In this document: positions 1,043-6,666 of the stretch, piece after piece
Layout of the letters: the number at the start of each line of letters is the position of its first letter
Position numbering within the stretch: position 1 is the first letter of the stretch
Position numbers and translations under genes: made by a program
Notes under the pieces: generated by a model
Database searches by the model: none
Seen by the model: only the letters and a program-made list of their open reading frames with translations
Told to the model about the DNA's origin: nothing
Origin: Methanomassiliicoccales archaeon
GTDB taxonomy: Archaea; Thermoplasmatota; Thermoplasmata; Sysuiplasmatales; Sysuiplasmataceae
Reading direction: 5' to 3'
Length of the DNA stretch: 7,476 nucleotides
Assembly (NCBI GenBank): GCA_027365715.1
Contig: DAHXLZ010000265.1
Span: 1 to 7,476, forward strand

Positions 1043-1141
1043 ATGGGAGATGAAAAGCAGACGCATCCCAGGCTCTTCCAGCTCTGGGAACAATTAATAA
1101 AACTATCCAAAGAGCAGGAGCAGGAGGGAAAGAAAAAATGA
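1043..1141 (+). CDS. 32-residue small protein coupled to the replication gene
   Basis: A very short frame with good translation signals: GGAG at 1031-1034, eight bases before the ATG, and a TGA that overlaps the next start as ATGA (1138-1141). The product has a central amphipathic-looking stretch (RLFQLWEQLIKLS) followed by a charged tail rich in Glu, Gln and Lys. No family is recognised. It could be a real small protein or a leader peptide whose translation opens the start of the replication gene. The GGAGGG that serves the next gene (1123-1128) lies inside this frame. Confidence 0.5.
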   Translation: MGDEKQTHPRLFQLWEQLIKLSKEQEQEGKKK

Positions 1142-3180
1142 CTGTAAAAAAAGCACCCCCTGCCGGCAAGCAGGAGGAGCAAGACAAGAGCGGTCAAAGT
1201 AATGCTTCACAGTCAGATAAACCTTCACATTCTGAAGCGCAGATGGTGCAATGCATTTATTGCGACAAGGTCTGGAATGCTGGCAAGGATCGTGTGCTTG
1301 ATGACTTCCCAATTGTATGTAGCCACTGCGGGAAGGATCAACCGGGCAATGCAGCAAGAGACATGTGGACTGAGTCACAGAAAACGATTCTTGAACTGAA
1401 ATCAGGAGCCAAGGTAATCTTCAAGGAAGCACGCGCAGTCAATCCGGCCCTCGACGTTGCACATGGCGTGATGATCATTACGAAACTGCTGCCAGGGGAA
1501 TTCAAGGCATTTCATCCGAAAACACATGAATTCATCGGCATGACGTACGAACTCCGGAATTTCACCATAACCAGTGAAGGAGAAATATTCGAATGCACGG
1601 CCGGCGAATTTCGACAGCGAGATTTATTCCCGAAGGTCCCGGATAGCGATGTCGAATGCCCCTGGAGCGCATCGTCTGTGAAGCGATTTATCGATGGGGA
1701 CGCACACGTCAATCCTGCAGTTCTGTTCCAGAAGACCAGGGACGCATTCGATTACTACATGGACTTTGGCGAAGTGAAAGGAGCGTCTGCCTATTGCGCA
1801 CTGTACAACATGCTCACTTATTTTTTCGTCTTATTTGACGCCGTGCCCTATCTCAAGCTCAGCGGTATGAAAGGAGCAGCGAAAACCAAACTCTGTGAGC
1901 TGTTTCTCCAGATGGGGTTCAATCCCCTTATGGCCGTTGCTCTCACTTCGGCCATACTCTATAGAACCATCCAGGACACGCGCGGCGTCATGATCATCGA
2001 TGAAGGGGAATCACTCCAATTCAATGATGATCAGCGCGCTGAAATGATTGCCATTCTGAATTCAGGCTGGAGAGCGAATGGGAGTGTTTCCAGAATGAAC
2101 ATGGAGGGGAAGCGGAAGAAGCGTGAACACTTCAGCACTTATGGCCCAAAGATTATCGGTGCAATAAATGCGGTCATCGATACACTGGGAGACAGGGCTT
2201 ACGAAATTCTCCTGCTAAAAACACTCGATGAGGAAAAGGCCAATCGAGGCGTGAAAAACGGTGATAAGGGTCTCAGTGCGATTCGAGACGACCATTACAT
2301 CTTACTCATGACACAATGGCAGGAAGTTAGACAGATTCTGGAGACCATTGAGAATAAAGACAGACTGCTTGGAAGAGAATGGGACAAAGCCAAACCACTC
2401 CTTGTCTTGGCCGAATTTATTGACAGTTATATGCCCGAAGAGAAGAGAACTGTGAGGCAGGAGCTGACTGAATTTGTGAGAGAACAGACAAGAGACCGAC
2501 GGGAAGACACTTCCGACTCTTTTGACGCGCTGATCCTCGATGAACTTGAAACAATGGTGGTATCAGAAACAAAACGCGTTACGAATGATGAGCAACCGAA
2601 TAGACAGGTTGAGATTGTGTTGAAAGTGCTTGCGGAAGCTGTAGCTATCGCGGAGGGGAATGATGTTGAGAAGAAGAATTTCAATCTCGGTCGCTACAGT
2701 AAGAGGTTGTCGTCCCGGCTCAGAAGCATGGGGCTGATTATGAACAAGAGGATGAGCATGGGAGTCACCAAATTCGACACCACACTCGCCAGGATTCAAC
2801 TCGCAAAAAGTAGATATTTCAACCTCTCCTCTACTACCTCTACTTCTTCTATTTCCTCTACTACCTCTACTACCTCTACTAATAATAATGAAAAAACAGT
2901 AGAGCAAGTAGAGCAAGTAGAGATTGTAGAGGAGAAAGAGCGGGCGGTAGAGGAAAAAGCCGTAGCACGTCTCTCTTTGTCAGATGTGAAGCTTCTTCTC
3001 GTCCGTTTCGGTGTAAAATACGGCATTTTCGAAAGAGCAGGAAAGCAGGCCGTGTCCACAATTCCGACATTCATTCTTGAAAAATCACATCCGGACCTCG
3101 TCGGACACTTGCGAGCTGGCGGCTGGCGGGATCAGGAGAAGCGAGACCGTTCAGGCTCATACTGGATGCAGGAGGCCTGA
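1138..3180 (+). CDS. AAA+ ATPase, plasmid/virus replication helicase-like
   Basis: A 680-residue protein, probably the replication initiator/helicase. In order: a polar N-terminus; a zinc ribbon with C39-x2-C42 and C61-x2-C64; an unassigned region; then an ATPase core. The core has Walker A GMKGAAKT (243-250), in which Ala replaces the usual Gly before Lys; Walker B VMIIDE (284-289); a sensor-1 Asn near 344; and LGDR (350-353), a likely arginine finger. The pattern LSG.KG..KT, IIDE, LN.GWR.NG, YGPK.I..I, LGDR resembles the DUF3631-type ATPases of plasmid primase-helicases. No primase domain is present. A winged-helix-like segment follows (about 518-560), then a Ser/Thr linker (564-583), a Glu-rich stretch (about 585-605), and a small C-terminal domain ending GSYWMQEA. 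GGAGGG lies 9 nt before the ATG. Replication is inferred from family and context. Confidence 0.75.
   Translation: MTVKKAPPAGKQEEQDKSGQSNASQSDKPSHSEAQMVQCIYCDKVWNAGKDRVLDDFPIVCSHCGKDQPGNAARDMWTESQKTILELKSGAKVIFKEARAVNPALDVAHGVMIITKLLPGEFKAFHPKTHEFIGMTYELRNFTITSEGEIFECTAGEFRQRDLFPKVPDSDVECPWSASSVKRFIDGDAHVNPAVLFQKTRDAFDYYMDFGEVKGASAYCALYNMLTYFFVLFDAVPYLKLSGMKGAAKTKLCELFLQMGFNPLMAVALTSAILYRTIQDTRGVMIIDEGESLQFNDDQRAEMIAILNSGWRANGSVSRMNMEGKRKKREHFSTYGPKIIGAINAVIDTLGDRAYEILLLKTLDEEKANRGVKNGDKGLSAIRDDHYILLMTQWQEVRQILETIENKDRLLGREWDKAKPLLVLAEFIDSYMPEEKRTVRQELTEFVREQTRDRREDTSDSFDALILDELETMVVSETKRVTNDEQPNRQVEIVLKVLAEAVAIAEGNDVEKKNFNLGRYSKRLSSRLRSMGLIMNKRMSMGVTKFDTTLARIQLAKSRYFNLSSTTSTSSISSTTSTTSTNNNEKTVEQVEQVEIVEEKERAVEEKAVARLSLSDVKLLLVRFGVKYGIFERAGKQAVSTIPTFILEKSHPDLVGHLRAGGWRDQEKRDRSGSYWMQEA
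2829..2952 (+). repeat. Phased heptamer inverted-repeat array inside the replication gene
   Basis: The left arm has six 9-bp units; five carry exact CTCTAC (starts 2829, 2838, 2856, 2865, 2874) and the unit at 2847 is degenerate. The right arm has exact GTAGAG at 2899, 2908, 2917 and 2926, also at 9-bp spacing, and at 2947. CTCTACT at 2856, 2865 and 2874 pairs with AGTAGAG at 2916, 2907 and 2898, giving three perfect 7-bp helices separated by 2-nt mismatches around a 17-nt A-rich loop (2881-2897). In the protein the left arm encodes Ser/Thr repeats and the right arm VEQ repeats, so the two arms use different codon phases for complementary DNA. This may be an iteron-type origin, a cruciform, or an mRNA hairpin. 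The array is seen; the role is inferred. Confidence 0.8.
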
Positions 3181-3361: not shown

Positions 3362-3942
3362 CCCGTATTTTCAGCGACGAGCAGATAATGGTTCGAGTAG
3401 CCATGCTGCGTCAGCATGGATTCACCTGGAAGCGCATATCAGAAGAGACGGGCATTTCGGTATCGGCGTGTGTCCACGCCTATGAGGAATGGCAGGCGGA
3501 CCAGGCAAAAGAGCGGGGCAGTTCAGAGAAGCAGTCCCACATGCTCTTCATATTTTCAAACGAGGACTTTGCAGACTTTCTTGTGGAGAAGCTGAGAGGC
3601 GGCTGGATAATTGTTGACACCGGCGAGGACCTGGGAGCTCTTAAGATGTTTGAGGCCGAAGTTTATCCTCCAGACACGCCGGCCAACGACGGCTTCGAGA
3701 TCCTTCACCACTGGGGCATCCGTGTTCATGGGGTCGTTTTCCTTGCAAAGAAAGTGGACGCCCTCCGGCAATTCTTGCAGAAGCACTGCGTGAACTTATC
3801 TGATGTAAAGTGGAATGAGCTCATCTGTATTGGTATTTCGAAAGCCACTCTCGAAGGCACTGCGCCCTTGTCGCATCATTATCTGGAGACTGCAGAACAG
3901 ATACAGGCGCTCGTAGAAATTCTTTCGACGGAGGACTCATGA
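3358..3942 (+). CDS. HTH protein with unrecognised C-terminal domain
   Basis: A 194-residue protein. Residues 1-52 repeat the HTH of the preceding gene (DEQIMVRVAMLRQHG, WKRISEETGISVSACVHAY, EEWQADQAKERG). Residues about 60-194 form a separate globular domain that I do not recognise; it is mixed alpha/beta in character (LFIFSNEDFADFLVEKL, GWIIVDTGED, HGVVFLAKKVDALRQFL) and shows no nuclease, ATP-binding or metal-binding motif. GGGAGG at 3345-3350 is 7 nt before the ATG, and both ends overlap neighbours as ATGA. Its position just before the serine recombinase suggests a DNA-binding partner or directionality factor, but the sequence alone does not show this. Confidence 0.7.
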   Translation: MTRIFSDEQIMVRVAMLRQHGFTWKRISEETGISVSACVHAYEEWQADQAKERGSSEKQSHMLFIFSNEDFADFLVEKLRGGWIIVDTGEDLGALKMFEAEVYPPDTPANDGFEILHHWGIRVHGVVFLAKKVDALRQFLQKHCVNLSDVKWNELICIGISKATLEGTAPLSHHYLETAEQIQALVEILSTEDS

Positions 3943-4586
3943 CACAGACTGCTGCCCTCTATGTTCGCGTCAGCACTCAGGATCAATCACTCGAAGGTCA
4001 GGAGCGCGAGCTGCGTGCCTACGCTGAGGCTCGTTCCTGGCAGGTTGTTCATATCTACAGAGAGAAGGTCAGTGCGACGGGGAAGGTTAGCAGGGAAGAG
4101 TATGAGAAACTGCTATCAGACGCAAGGAGTCAATCGCGCCCCTGGAAGCATGTTCTTGTCTGGTCCCTGGACAGATTCTCCAGGGAGGAACGGTTCACCA
4201 TGGCAGTAGACGCCATATGGCAACTCGAAGCGTGTGGCATCAATTTTCACAGCCTGAAAGAGCCCGCTATTGACACGCCGGAGAACGGACAGGAGGATAT
4301 CGGCCGAACCATTCTCAGGGCCATTCTACCCATCATTGCTTCTTTTGAGAGCAAACGCAGGTCTGAAAGGGTCAGGGTCGCCATGTCAGATATCAAGGCC
4401 GGCAGGCGTGTTCCCCGTTCTCCTGTCGGCAGGCCGCGAAAGATTACAGCTGTGAAGGTTCAGACCGCTTCAATGCTGAGAGACCAGGGCATGCCCTGGA
4501 AGGAAATAGCGAGGCGTGTCGGCCTTCCTGCCGAAACGTGCCGGAAGGCTGTCAGGGAGCTCAGACACACACTTGGCAGGAAGTGA
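3939..4586 (+). CDS. Serine recombinase (resolvase/invertase family)
   Basis: A 215-residue protein with the full layout of a small serine recombinase. The catalytic domain opens at once with ALYVRVSTQDQ, giving the nucleophile S12 and the active-site R10. WSLDRFSR (75-82) carries the conserved Asp-Arg and Ser-x-x-Arg-type residues, and the region ending FESKRRSERVRVAM is the long dimer helix. A basic minor-groove segment (GRPRK, about 164-168) leads into the C-terminal HTH (about 178-208, WKEIARRVGLPAETCRKAV). Such enzymes break four strands through a Ser-DNA link to resolve plasmid multimers or invert segments. It is not the IS607 type, which has its HTH at the N-terminus. GGAGG at 3930-3934 precedes the ATG, which overlaps the previous stop. 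Catalytic residues look intact. I could not find its crossover site. Confidence 0.9.
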   Translation: MTQTAALYVRVSTQDQSLEGQERELRAYAEARSWQVVHIYREKVSATGKVSREEYEKLLSDARSQSRPWKHVLVWSLDRFSREERFTMAVDAIWQLEACGINFHSLKEPAIDTPENGQEDIGRTILRAILPIIASFESKRRSERVRVAMSDIKAGRRVPRSPVGRPRKITAVKVQTASMLRDQGMPWKEIARRVGLPAETCRKAVRELRHTLGRK

Positions 4587-4590
4587 TATC

Positions 4591-5583
4591 ATGACCTACT
4601 ATGTCTACGACGAGGCAACGGTATCAGACCCGACGTACGGAGGAACGACAAAGATAGCCTACGGGACGAAGGGCTCAGGGAAGAGCACACTGATCACCAG
4701 GTGGCTCTTCGAGGCCCTGCAGAGGCATGAGACGGCAATATGGAGAGCCCGCTACACTGACACCTGGAATGTTTTCGCCCAGGCGAGGGGAACGCAGCTC
4801 CTCGTTCCTCTCGGCTCGGATGTGGAGCTCCTGCTTTCTCCGATCGTGCGCGCAGGAAAGACAGTGCCCGTTCTCCCTGAGAACCTCGGTCGAGGCATAA
4901 CTGTGACGGGTTACACATCGCCTGAGGACGCCGTGCGGCTACTGCGTCCCGCTTCGGCCAATATCATTGCGACGCCGTTCGCCAGGCAAGAGCAAGAAGT
5001 GCCCTTCTGGACCGCGTTCGCGTTTTATCTCGTGCGCAGGCCTGACCTGAGTTTCGTTCACTTTGCTATCGATGAAATTGACGAGCTCTTCTCTCCGTAT
5101 CCGCCCTGGTCGCTGTATGATTATTACATGCGCTTCAGGGATGCTTTCAGAGACTTCCGGAAGACAAGAGTGCAGTTCAGCGCCTCTGCGCACATTTACA
5201 GCGACGTGGACTACAGAATCGAGAATAAGTTCAGATATCGCGCATACCTCCAGGGCGCGATGGTGAAGACCAGCCGGGCTGTCGTCAAACAGCGTTATGT
5301 GAATGCCCTGGGGAAATGGGAGGGCATAATGGAAAGCACCAGGTATCAACACTTCGAGTTCGGCCCAATCCCGGAGCCTTTCCGGCCTGCAGACATGATC
5401 ATCACACGCATTCGTCCTGCCACTCAGGATGAGCCGCAGCCTCAGCCTGCGGCGGAGCTCCCCGCAAATACGCGCCGGCAGGTCGTGTGCCCGAAATGCG
5501 GCAGGGCAGTCTACACCAGGATGCCGGCAGGAGAGTATGTGCGATGTTCCAATCTGAGCTGTAGACACAAGTTCTGTGTGTGA
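4591..5583 (+). CDS. P-loop ATPase with C-terminal zinc ribbon
   Basis: A 330-residue protein. Walker A is GTKGSGKST (25-33) and Walker B is HFAIDE (157-162). After these, FRKTRVQFSASAHIYSDVDYR (roughly 190-210) resembles the sensor region of FtsK/HerA- and Zot-like DNA-translocating or membrane-associated ATPases. The C-terminus is a zinc ribbon with C300, C303, C319 and C324, plus a fifth Cys at 329. The frame opens upstream inside the recombinase gene, but ATG 4591 is preferred: GGAAGTGAT just before it is close to the archaeal Shine-Dalgarno consensus, and it avoids a 71-bp overlap. There is no signal peptide or membrane segment. It could move or package element DNA, or act in segregation; the exact family is unresolved. 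It is the last gene of the operon. Confidence 0.7.
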   Translation: MTYYVYDEATVSDPTYGGTTKIAYGTKGSGKSTLITRWLFEALQRHETAIWRARYTDTWNVFAQARGTQLLVPLGSDVELLLSPIVRAGKTVPVLPENLGRGITVTGYTSPEDAVRLLRPASANIIATPFARQEQEVPFWTAFAFYLVRRPDLSFVHFAIDEIDELFSPYPPWSLYDYYMRFRDAFRDFRKTRVQFSASAHIYSDVDYRIENKFRYRAYLQGAMVKTSRAVVKQRYVNALGKWEGIMESTRYQHFEFGPIPEPFRPADMIITRIRPATQDEPQPQPAAELPANTRRQVVCPKCGRAVYTRMPAGEYVRCSNLSCRHKFCV

Positions 5584-5611
5584 GGCATCTTCATGTGCAC
5601 ATCAGTAGCCA

Positions 5612-6121
5612 GTGCGACTGAAGGGGCTGCACGACGTGTGTGACGATTGTTCCAGGACTAAGTTTGGCGGCGTGGTGCGCCTTGGTGCTTGCGACTGCAA
5701 GTGCAGGACCGAATGGACGCTTAGAACCTCAGCCCTCAGGACGTGCAGGGGCAGGCCCGTTACAAAGGTAACTTCCCCCTTCGAACCTTACAAGGCGACA
5801 GCACGCTGTCTGCGGTGTCAACACTCGCTGAAGGACAAAAGCTGCACCAGTGTCCCTCGAGAACAACCTAATCCGGCGGGAAGGCCTATAATGGGAGCAA
5901 GCTCAAGAGACAGCATGTAGGGTGAACAGCGTAAGCGTTCGTGGTGACTTGTCGCCTCAGGTGAGCTGTGGGCGGTCGCCAGAAAGATTATATGCCGCCG
6001 CCAGGCGTGGGAGAAACCCATGTCGGGAGAAAAGGTCGGAATCTCAGCTCCTGACGGTATGCGGTCCAAAGGCAAGCGTTTTGACCGGTCGAGAGACCGC
6101 AGCGCATAGTTAGTGTTATGC
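5612..6121 (+). ncRNA. Candidate structured RNA, group II intron domain I-like remnant
   Basis: The stretch has no believable protein but many strong hairpins on the plus strand: 5688-5701, 5759-5772, 5797-5810, 5924-5940 (GUAA tetraloop), 5952-5964, 6008-6020, 6022-6055 (8 bp), 6086-6099 (GAGA tetraloop) and 6104-6121. It begins with GTGCGAC at 5612, the group II intron 5' consensus, 29 nt after the ATPase stop. TGGTGACT at 5942-5949, just after the GUAA hairpin, can pair with the eight bases before 5612 (7 of 8, one G-U), the place and partner expected for EBS1-IBS1. Segments such as GAGCTGTGGGC and CGTGGGAGAAACCC are reminiscent of intron domain I. I found no domain V hairpin or reverse transcriptase before 6660, so if it is an intron it is truncated. 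Other structured RNAs remain possible. Confidence 0.4.
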
Positions 6122-6440
6122 AGGGGCAAGATACGGCACTAAGTGGTACTTTGTACCATATACCCCCCTCCGTTATGTACATAGTATACAAGGACGCCTA
6201 AGTTTCCAGGTCGCTGAGCGTGGGCCTGTGGTACTTTTCACCAACTGCGGCGACACTTTCTTTGCCGTTCTCTCCGGCCGGAATTGGACGCATTCATCCT
6301 GTCTTCAGTCTTGGCGGCCGGACCTGCAGCTGATACTGTTGGTGTGATAGAGAAGCGGCAGGGAATTGCCACACATCAATTCAGGAGGTCATCTTATACG
6401 GCGTGCCCTCCGTTCGTGCAACCTGAGCGCTCTAATTGCG
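6122..6440. other. Intergenic stretch with hairpin, C-tract and palindrome
   Basis: No gene is supported. It holds a perfect 6-bp hairpin with a TTT loop (TGGTAC/GTACCA, 6144-6158), followed by a six-C tract (6163-6168) and a 10-bp palindrome TATGTACATA (6174-6183). GTGGTACTTT occurs twice (6143-6152 and 6228-6237). The hairpin could end operon or RNA transcription, but no T-tract follows it. From about 6351 the frame that leads into the integrase relic is open, without recognisable motifs until 6441. Confidence 0.5.
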
Positions 6441-6634
6441 TTCGATGTTCGTAATGTGGCGGAAAAAGCGGCGATTCATCCGGATGTGTGCGGTCACACC
6501 TTCGCAGGACATATTTGAGAATGTCAGGACAACTCGACGAGATCAGGCCCTCCAGGGCAACCGGCCCGGTGATTATCACACAAAGTCATTTGAATTGTTT
6601 GCCATGTGGCAAACCGGACCTTTTCTCCCGATAG
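6441..6634 (+). pseudogene. Tyrosine recombinase (integrase) relic, frameshifted
   Basis: One frame (6441-6515) reads VRNVAEKAAIHPDV then CGHTFAGHI before a TGA. This aligns with the box II region of tyrosine recombinases (AEKAGIHPHxxRHTFATHL), but the catalytic Arg is Gly here (GGT). Directly after the stop, another frame (6515-6634) continues as LRMSGQLDEIR, matching the LLxSGxDLxxIQ segment that normally follows, and a third frame gives ALQGNRPGDYHTKSFEL, like the LLGHxSxxTTxxYxL tail with Tyr changed to Phe. Three collinear pieces in three frames, with lost catalytic residues, suggest a decayed gene. It is short and the upstream half is not recognisable, so chance similarity cannot be excluded. 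Confidence 0.45.
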
Positions 6635-6636
6635 GG

Positions 6637-6642
6637 TTTTAT
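6637..6642 (+). promoter_or_regulatory. Weak TATA-like box for the coiled-coil gene
   Basis: TTTTAT is centred about 27 nt before the ATG at 6667, the distance expected if transcription begins at or next to the start codon. The gene has no Shine-Dalgarno sequence, which also fits a leaderless transcript. The box sits between GGG and CCC and departs from the archaeal consensus, so the call is tentative. Confidence 0.3.
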
Positions 6643-6666
6643 CCCGTTCACACATAACTGTTAACC

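Follow-up and report, generated by a model that had tools for sequence, protein, structure and literature searches.

The 7,476-bp stretch of archaeal DNA analysed here, referred to below as the window, contains a helicase gene whose reading frame holds two facing sets of short repeats around an A+T-rich gap. Comparison with related genes suggests that this array is the origin of an archaeal mobile element, in which inverted iterons flanking the gap are read by winged helix 1 of the very initiator that the gene encodes. A probability of roughly 0.6 is given to this reading, which is built on sequence comparison. An earlier note on this DNA had offered three options for the array, and of these an iteron origin bound by the protein in which it lies appears to be the best supported by comparison.

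The array is made up of six left units with the core CTCTACT and five right units with the core AGTAGAG (Table 1). The left units begin at positions 2829, 2838, 2847, 2856, 2865 and 2874 and encode a Ser/Thr repeat; the right units begin at 2898, 2907 and 2916 (exact copies), 2925 (TGTAGAG) and 2946 (GGTAGAG) and encode a Val-Glu-Gln repeat. All spacings within either set are 9 bp, with the exception of the last right unit, which lies 21 bp from its neighbor. The left unit at 2847 (TTCTATT) is degenerate. The 17-bp gap between the sets, AATAATAATGAAAAAAC, is 88% A+T as compared to 52% for the whole gene. In the left set codons end after motif bases 1 and 4, and in the right set after bases 3 and 6, and it is in this motif register that the two arms have the different codon phases ascribed to them; on the + strand, however, codon position 3 is the first base of both cores. 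The distance from the end of the array to the end of the helicase stop codon is 228 nt.

Table 1. Location of the helicase gene, its domains and the elements of the array (positions are those of the window).
Feature	Position	Strand	Description
Initiator helicase ORF, 680 aa	1138..3180	+	N-terminal domain, MCM-like AAA+ core, winged helix 1, disordered linker, C-terminal domain
Winged helix 1, proposed array reader (putative role)	2605..2817	+	residues about 490-560; helices and beta hairpin in model
Single-strand ladder (predicted)	2820..2960	+	7-bp helices with 2x2 internal loops between, adjoining gap
Left iteron set (putative)	2829..2880	-	6 units, AGTAGAG on - strand (CTCTACT on +), 9-bp spacing
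A+T-rich gap, possible melting site (putative role)	2881..2897	.	88% A+T
Right iteron set (putative)	2898..2952	+	5 units, core (A/T/G)GTAGAG
Extra C-terminal domain past array	2968..3177	+	residues about 611-680; model block pLDDT 57-86

The complementary heptamer arrays reported at 2829-2952 are real and well beyond chance. The ten copies of CTCTAC/GTAGAG present in the window, against a random expectation of about 3.7, all lie in the array, and a motif-blind scan counted 10 core copies as compared to at most 4 in 100 dinucleotide shuffles. When a fixed stretch of 270 nt after the winged helix is searched, the top inverted repeat in the window scores 21.0; none of 300 protein-preserving synonymous recodings exceeds 16.5, and none of 300 codon shuffles exceeds 13.0. 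Because both the score and the copy number exceed the recoding and shuffle nulls, the peptide alone does not explain the array. The heptamer with one mismatch is not enriched across the window (20 matches vs a shuffle mean of 18.1); the excess resides in the exact copies and their clustering. Single stems with scores near 15.0 are no proof, as one of score 15.0 is also present in an unrelated ORF of another locus (L076). GC skew does not change direction at the array and is uninformative over 7.5 kb. A search of Rfam with the window returned two microRNA-family matches, both far under the gathering scores, which probably merely reflect the hairpin. The 16-mer CTCTACTACCTCTACT was also considered as a shared mobile repeat and was rejected; it is found in 71 viral-contig stretches, and 0/71 have at least two copies of GTAGAG in the flank examined.

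The protein encoded by the gene has the fold of initiator helicases, in which an AAA+ helicase fold is followed by a winged helix, as in Cch and SaPI Rep. The predicted model has a mean pLDDT of 75.6 (22-row alignment). Winged helix 1 ends with the anchor LAKSRY, and the C-terminal domain (residues about 611-680) is winged-helix-like by eye. The array occupies codons 564-605 of the 680-aa ORF and is placed inside a disordered linker because model confidence is low over residues 562-609; it is confined to the part of the linker with pLDDT below 50. Searches with the protein returned no Pfam family over its cut-off (DUF927 is the recognised domain of Cch), no prim-pol match, no relative in viral contigs or phages, and nothing useful among solved structures searched by sequence; in plasmids, only weak matches in 5 records were obtained.

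Relatives of this gene in Thermoplasmata carry linkers with other cores, including CCTAAC/GTTAGG in L073, TCTACC/GGTAGA in L074, CTATAC/GTATAG in L097, CTCAAC/GTTGAG in L085, and ACTAAC/GTTAGT in L088. The linkers of L075 and L084 have TTAACT/AGTTAA-like cores that are nearly one core, and GTTAAT is also among the cores of the relatives. The peptides that these linkers encode, among them Pro-Asn, Ser-Thr, Ile-Asn, and Pro-Ile repeats, bear no relation to one another. Despite these differences in core and peptide, the two arms of each gene remain reverse complements of one another, a pattern that points to the selection at the DNA level proposed in the earlier note. Comparison of the homologue linkers at the DNA and protein levels thus revealed the opposite of the outcome that the earlier note had named as refuting, namely one peptide kept with free synonymous codons and non-complementary arms.

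The agreement between arms was quantified in several ways. In a swap matrix of 9 loci, for which the arms were hand-picked, each of the 9 rows has its highest value where a left arm meets the right arm of its own gene, and the own-arm value is reached by 0 to 18 of 1000 synonymous recodings; L075 and L084 are close to tied, and the second-best fit of L073 is the arm of L088. Over the fixed 270-nt stretch, all 10 linker-bearing genes lie above both nulls, their values being reached by at most 6/300 synonymous recodings and at most 9/300 codon shuffles, as compared to 0/5 linkerless helicases, two of which were compared over short stretches of 42 and 123 nt. A protein-only test of the complementarity of linker halves, which ignores codon linkage and in some members (P0002, P0016) selects a best pair other than the visible arms, gave values reached by at most 5/100 residue shuffles in 13 of 18 family members and by 8 to 13 in the other five; P0006, which has no linker, was left out, and P0001 and P0003 are the window and L074 at the DNA level. 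The left-arm units of the coding arrays are 9 or 18 nt apart, with the exception of two steps in L073, whose arms are unequal (10 vs 3 units). L075 (at L075:3871-3893) and L084 (in the corresponding part) each have a second right-type cluster, some 70-80 nt beyond the first, which brings these genes to three sets.

The position of the array relative to the winged helix is nearly constant, and its position relative to the stop codon is not. Of the 14 genes measured, 13 have their first unit 3-58 nt past the winged-helix anchor, and in L085 the distance is 122 nt; from the anchor to the stop codon it is 12-624 nt (10 of the 14 genes). The array is inside the linker in the window, L073, L074, L075, L084, and L097 and in the coding tail in L109 (last 29 codons). 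In L108, L112 (touching), and L115 it spans or touches the stop codon, and in L099, L107, and L114 its units begin after the stop. The picks of the motif-blind scan for L099, L107, L108, L109, L112, L114, and L115 all contain GTTA on one strand. These distant helicases come from a further search (A4), in which 26 loci, part of the places found, were scanned; an array near the stop was detected in 7 of the 26 and none near the stop in the other 19, which counts against the origin reading. Four of the seven array loci were seeds of the search, and among the non-seed loci the count is 3/21 (L112, L114, L115), with the scan value reached in 0/100, 9/100, and 3/100 shuffles, respectively. An array was sought in L086, L089, and L093 and none was found; L113 and L123, where the wrong end was scanned first, still gave no array upon re-scanning. 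The array of L075 escaped the motif-blind scan, as it lies beyond the part covered; for this locus and for L100 the scan selected a different motif. In L126, another distant helicase, a 963-aa ORF contains seven CCACCG/CGGTGG copies in both orientations, some 420-306 nt ahead of its stop codon (0/100 shuffles), making this a candidate in-gene array.

Inverted repeats of this kind could be maintained as binding sites or as a stem. In the four arrays examined, left and right arms agree at rates of 0.75-1.0 in positions one to six and of 0.17-0.47 farther on, the exceptions being 0.60 at the seventh core base in the window and 0.75 in L074; the units were located by their core, so the core agreement figures are partly circular. 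The conserved part is a 6-7-bp core in these arrays, as for protein sites. The array of the window is also predicted to fold (RNA, -55.4 kcal/mol, z -6.80; DNA, z -3.85), as are those of eight of nine further loci (z -3.31 to -6.89). Since inverted sites are always able to pair, predicted folding by itself cannot tell sites from a stem, and a hairpin potential as strong as the site pattern is a point against an origin read by iterons. It might consequently be argued that selection acts on the fold, as a cruciform or a single-strand hairpin, and that the repeats only keep the stem of a stem-loop origin, for which the origin of pRN1 is a precedent, as a 100-nt stem-loop with unconserved sequence in which symmetry matters in the part of the source compared (PMC4234260). 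However, in the four arrays the 2-3-base spacers mostly show little agreement between arms, the arms of L073 are unequal, the fold of L085 is not beyond shuffles (z 0.36), and G:T pairs are not enriched among the mismatches of the four stems (6/22 vs about 5 expected). A stem-loop origin is considered less likely than iterons but is a serious rival. The cruciform or hairpin option of the earlier note has predicted folding in 9/10 arrays in its favor, but the iteron origin is better supported; its third option, an mRNA hairpin controlling the downstream genes, has no specific support, given the absence of G:T enrichment and the location of the array outside the gene in some distant relatives.

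The array could also be read by a protein other than the helicase, such as a partition or repressor protein, or could be arm sites of an integrase. A ribbon-helix-helix candidate is encoded just upstream (824-1030), with a weak match (E 0.079) under its cut-off; no such gene is recognised in the short upstream part of L074, where a 63-aa ORF has no Pfam match, and the constant place of the array behind the winged helix of the helicase argues against any separate reader. Integrase arm sites are judged unlikely, as the array is separated by about 2.7 kb in L073 and 5.3 kb in L075 from integrase-like ORFs that were called by eye and that Pfam does not confirm. A separate reader is accordingly rated as rather improbable. 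It is very improbable that the array reflects functionless growth, by in-frame 9-nt tandem duplication together with an inverted copy, tolerated in a disordered linker. Such growth would fit the 9- or 18-nt steps of the left units and the restriction of the window array to the low-confidence linker, but it needs many origins with new cores, each inverted, each close behind the winged helix, and some outside coding sequence.

For the favored reading, in which inverted iterons are read by winged helix 1, the following mechanism is proposed. First, the initiator would bind the two facing iteron sets through winged helix 1, with two initiator oligomers assembling, one on each set. Next, the A+T-rich gap would be melted by these oligomers, which would then load as a pair of helicases. 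The frame would run through the origin into the extra C-terminal domain, and because it continues through the origin, the origin would also be translated, as a disordered linker whose peptide would be free to be whatever the iterons spell. The origin would have been taken into the gene, and not the reverse. The gap is not A+T-rich everywhere, with values of 0.57 in L073 (gene 0.55) and 0.47 in L099 (gene 0.46). A more tentative proposal, to which we give somewhat less than even odds, is that the initiator gene grew through its own downstream origin, that linkers were swapped as cassettes between unrelated helicases, and that self-binding could block transcription and thereby adjust how much short protein is made relative to the full-length form.

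Exchange of modules is suggested by three loci. L088 and L100 encode D5/P4-type helicases and each contain two pairs of TTGRACAC-like sites (TTGAACAC or TTGGACAC-like), 52-54 nt apart, and their C-terminal domains are of the same kind as in close relatives. In L098 the ATPase part is unlike those of L088 and L100 and is unnamed by Pfam (tested through L101), the units are TATCGTC, and the C-terminal domain is like that of P0015. The helicase gene of L088 is on the minus strand, and at about L088:1700-2160 its own TTGAACACG pairs are followed by a short ACTAAC/GTTAGT array, which resembles one implied for P0013/P0014 and adjoins a C-terminal domain of the other family. L088 looks like a chimera produced by recombination inside the putatively origin-bearing linker, and the linker seems to be the point at which modules are exchanged. 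The core appears to travel with the helicase and winged helix 1, not with the C-terminal domain, although L088, with its two kinds of array, blurs this correspondence between array and module. The C-terminal domain was considered as the array reader and is disfavored by L098, which has a P0015-like C-terminal domain but another array.

Several known systems share features with the window. The C-terminal domain of SaPI Rep reads an iteron origin directly downstream of its gene (PMC7581432), the PICI origin is an AT-rich region flanked by two iteron sets (PMC6092414), and SaPI Rep is described in the Cch2 paper as binding 'as two hexamers' (SaPI/Cch2 sources PMC7581432, PMC6092414). Judged from the passages compared, which do not give the relative orientation of the two PICI iteron sets, the window resembles SaPI/PICI and SCCmec Cch/Cch2 in its related helicase fold and in having two iteron sets around an AT-rich region directly behind the DNA-binding domain. 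In contrast to the SaPI/PICI origin, which follows the gene, the window array is inside the frame and archaeal, its sets face oppositely, and a further domain lies beyond it. The array is not immediately 3' of the initiator gene in the window and is so in the distant L099, L107, and L114. The initiator of phage lambda is not known to contain a helicase. This phage has its ori, with four 19-bp repeats, in the middle of gene O (PMC3985674, in part). The window array, as a candidate origin at 2829-2952 inside the ORF at 1138-3180, would likewise be in the middle of an initiator gene; it differs from the four 19-bp iterons in having 11 units with a 6-7-bp core and 9-bp spacing, arranged as two facing sets within a helicase gene.

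In pRN1, the origin is a stem-loop of unconserved sequence that lies downstream of a gene (PMC4234260). Like the window, pRN1 is an archaeal element with a helicase that has a winged helix, and structure is kept while sequence changes, in the window as predicted folds; unlike the window, which has iteron-like units inside the gene, its origin is downstream of a prim-pol/SF3 gene and without iterons in the passages compared. Borg repeats are tandem and create disordered protein stretches in archaeal extrachromosomal elements (PMC9879509). The likeness to them that had been suggested holds for the tandem units and the disordered linker but is limited by arrangement, as Borg repeats are, in the source passages, pervasive direct repeats, whereas the arms of the window are also inverted and occupy one nearly fixed place. 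By analogy, the window would work like SaPI/PICI, be placed like lambda ori, and fold like pRN1; it is assigned to none of the three because for each at least one defining feature fails or rests on inference.

If the origin reading is correct, origins could be found by searching for inverted short repeats that code for a disordered linker behind the winged helix of an initiator, a signature that ordinary annotation overlooks. This would provide candidate origins and initiator-iteron pairs for mobile elements of Thermoplasmata, as well as a natural series for the movement of an origin into a gene. Because cores differ between related elements, the reader-site code of the winged helices would be testable. 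A search of the open-access literature found no paper on origins inside Thermoplasmata initiator genes among the matches listed, which is weak evidence of novelty.

The surroundings of the helicase genes contain several further features. In the window, a minus-strand ORF (139-771) has a weak ribbon-helix-helix match and includes a 21-bp tandem repeat of 3 copies that encodes coiled-coil heptads (204-266). Downstream of the helicase gene, positions 3939-5583 encode a serine recombinase (Resolvase, E 1.2e-27) and, behind it, an ORF that matches phrog_22963 (function unknown, E 2.1e-31) and that by eye is ATPase-like with a C-terminal cysteine pattern. In the next 1.1 kb or so (5584-6660), no gene is recognised by eye and there is no Rfam match at E 0.1. 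Genes for tRNA-Arg (TCG), which are possible integration targets, lie upstream of the helicase gene at L073:4234-4307 and L075:14-88. Finally, a transposase-like ORF (by eye) is found at L072:7543-8058, on the other strand and shortly behind the open part of a broken-off helicase gene.
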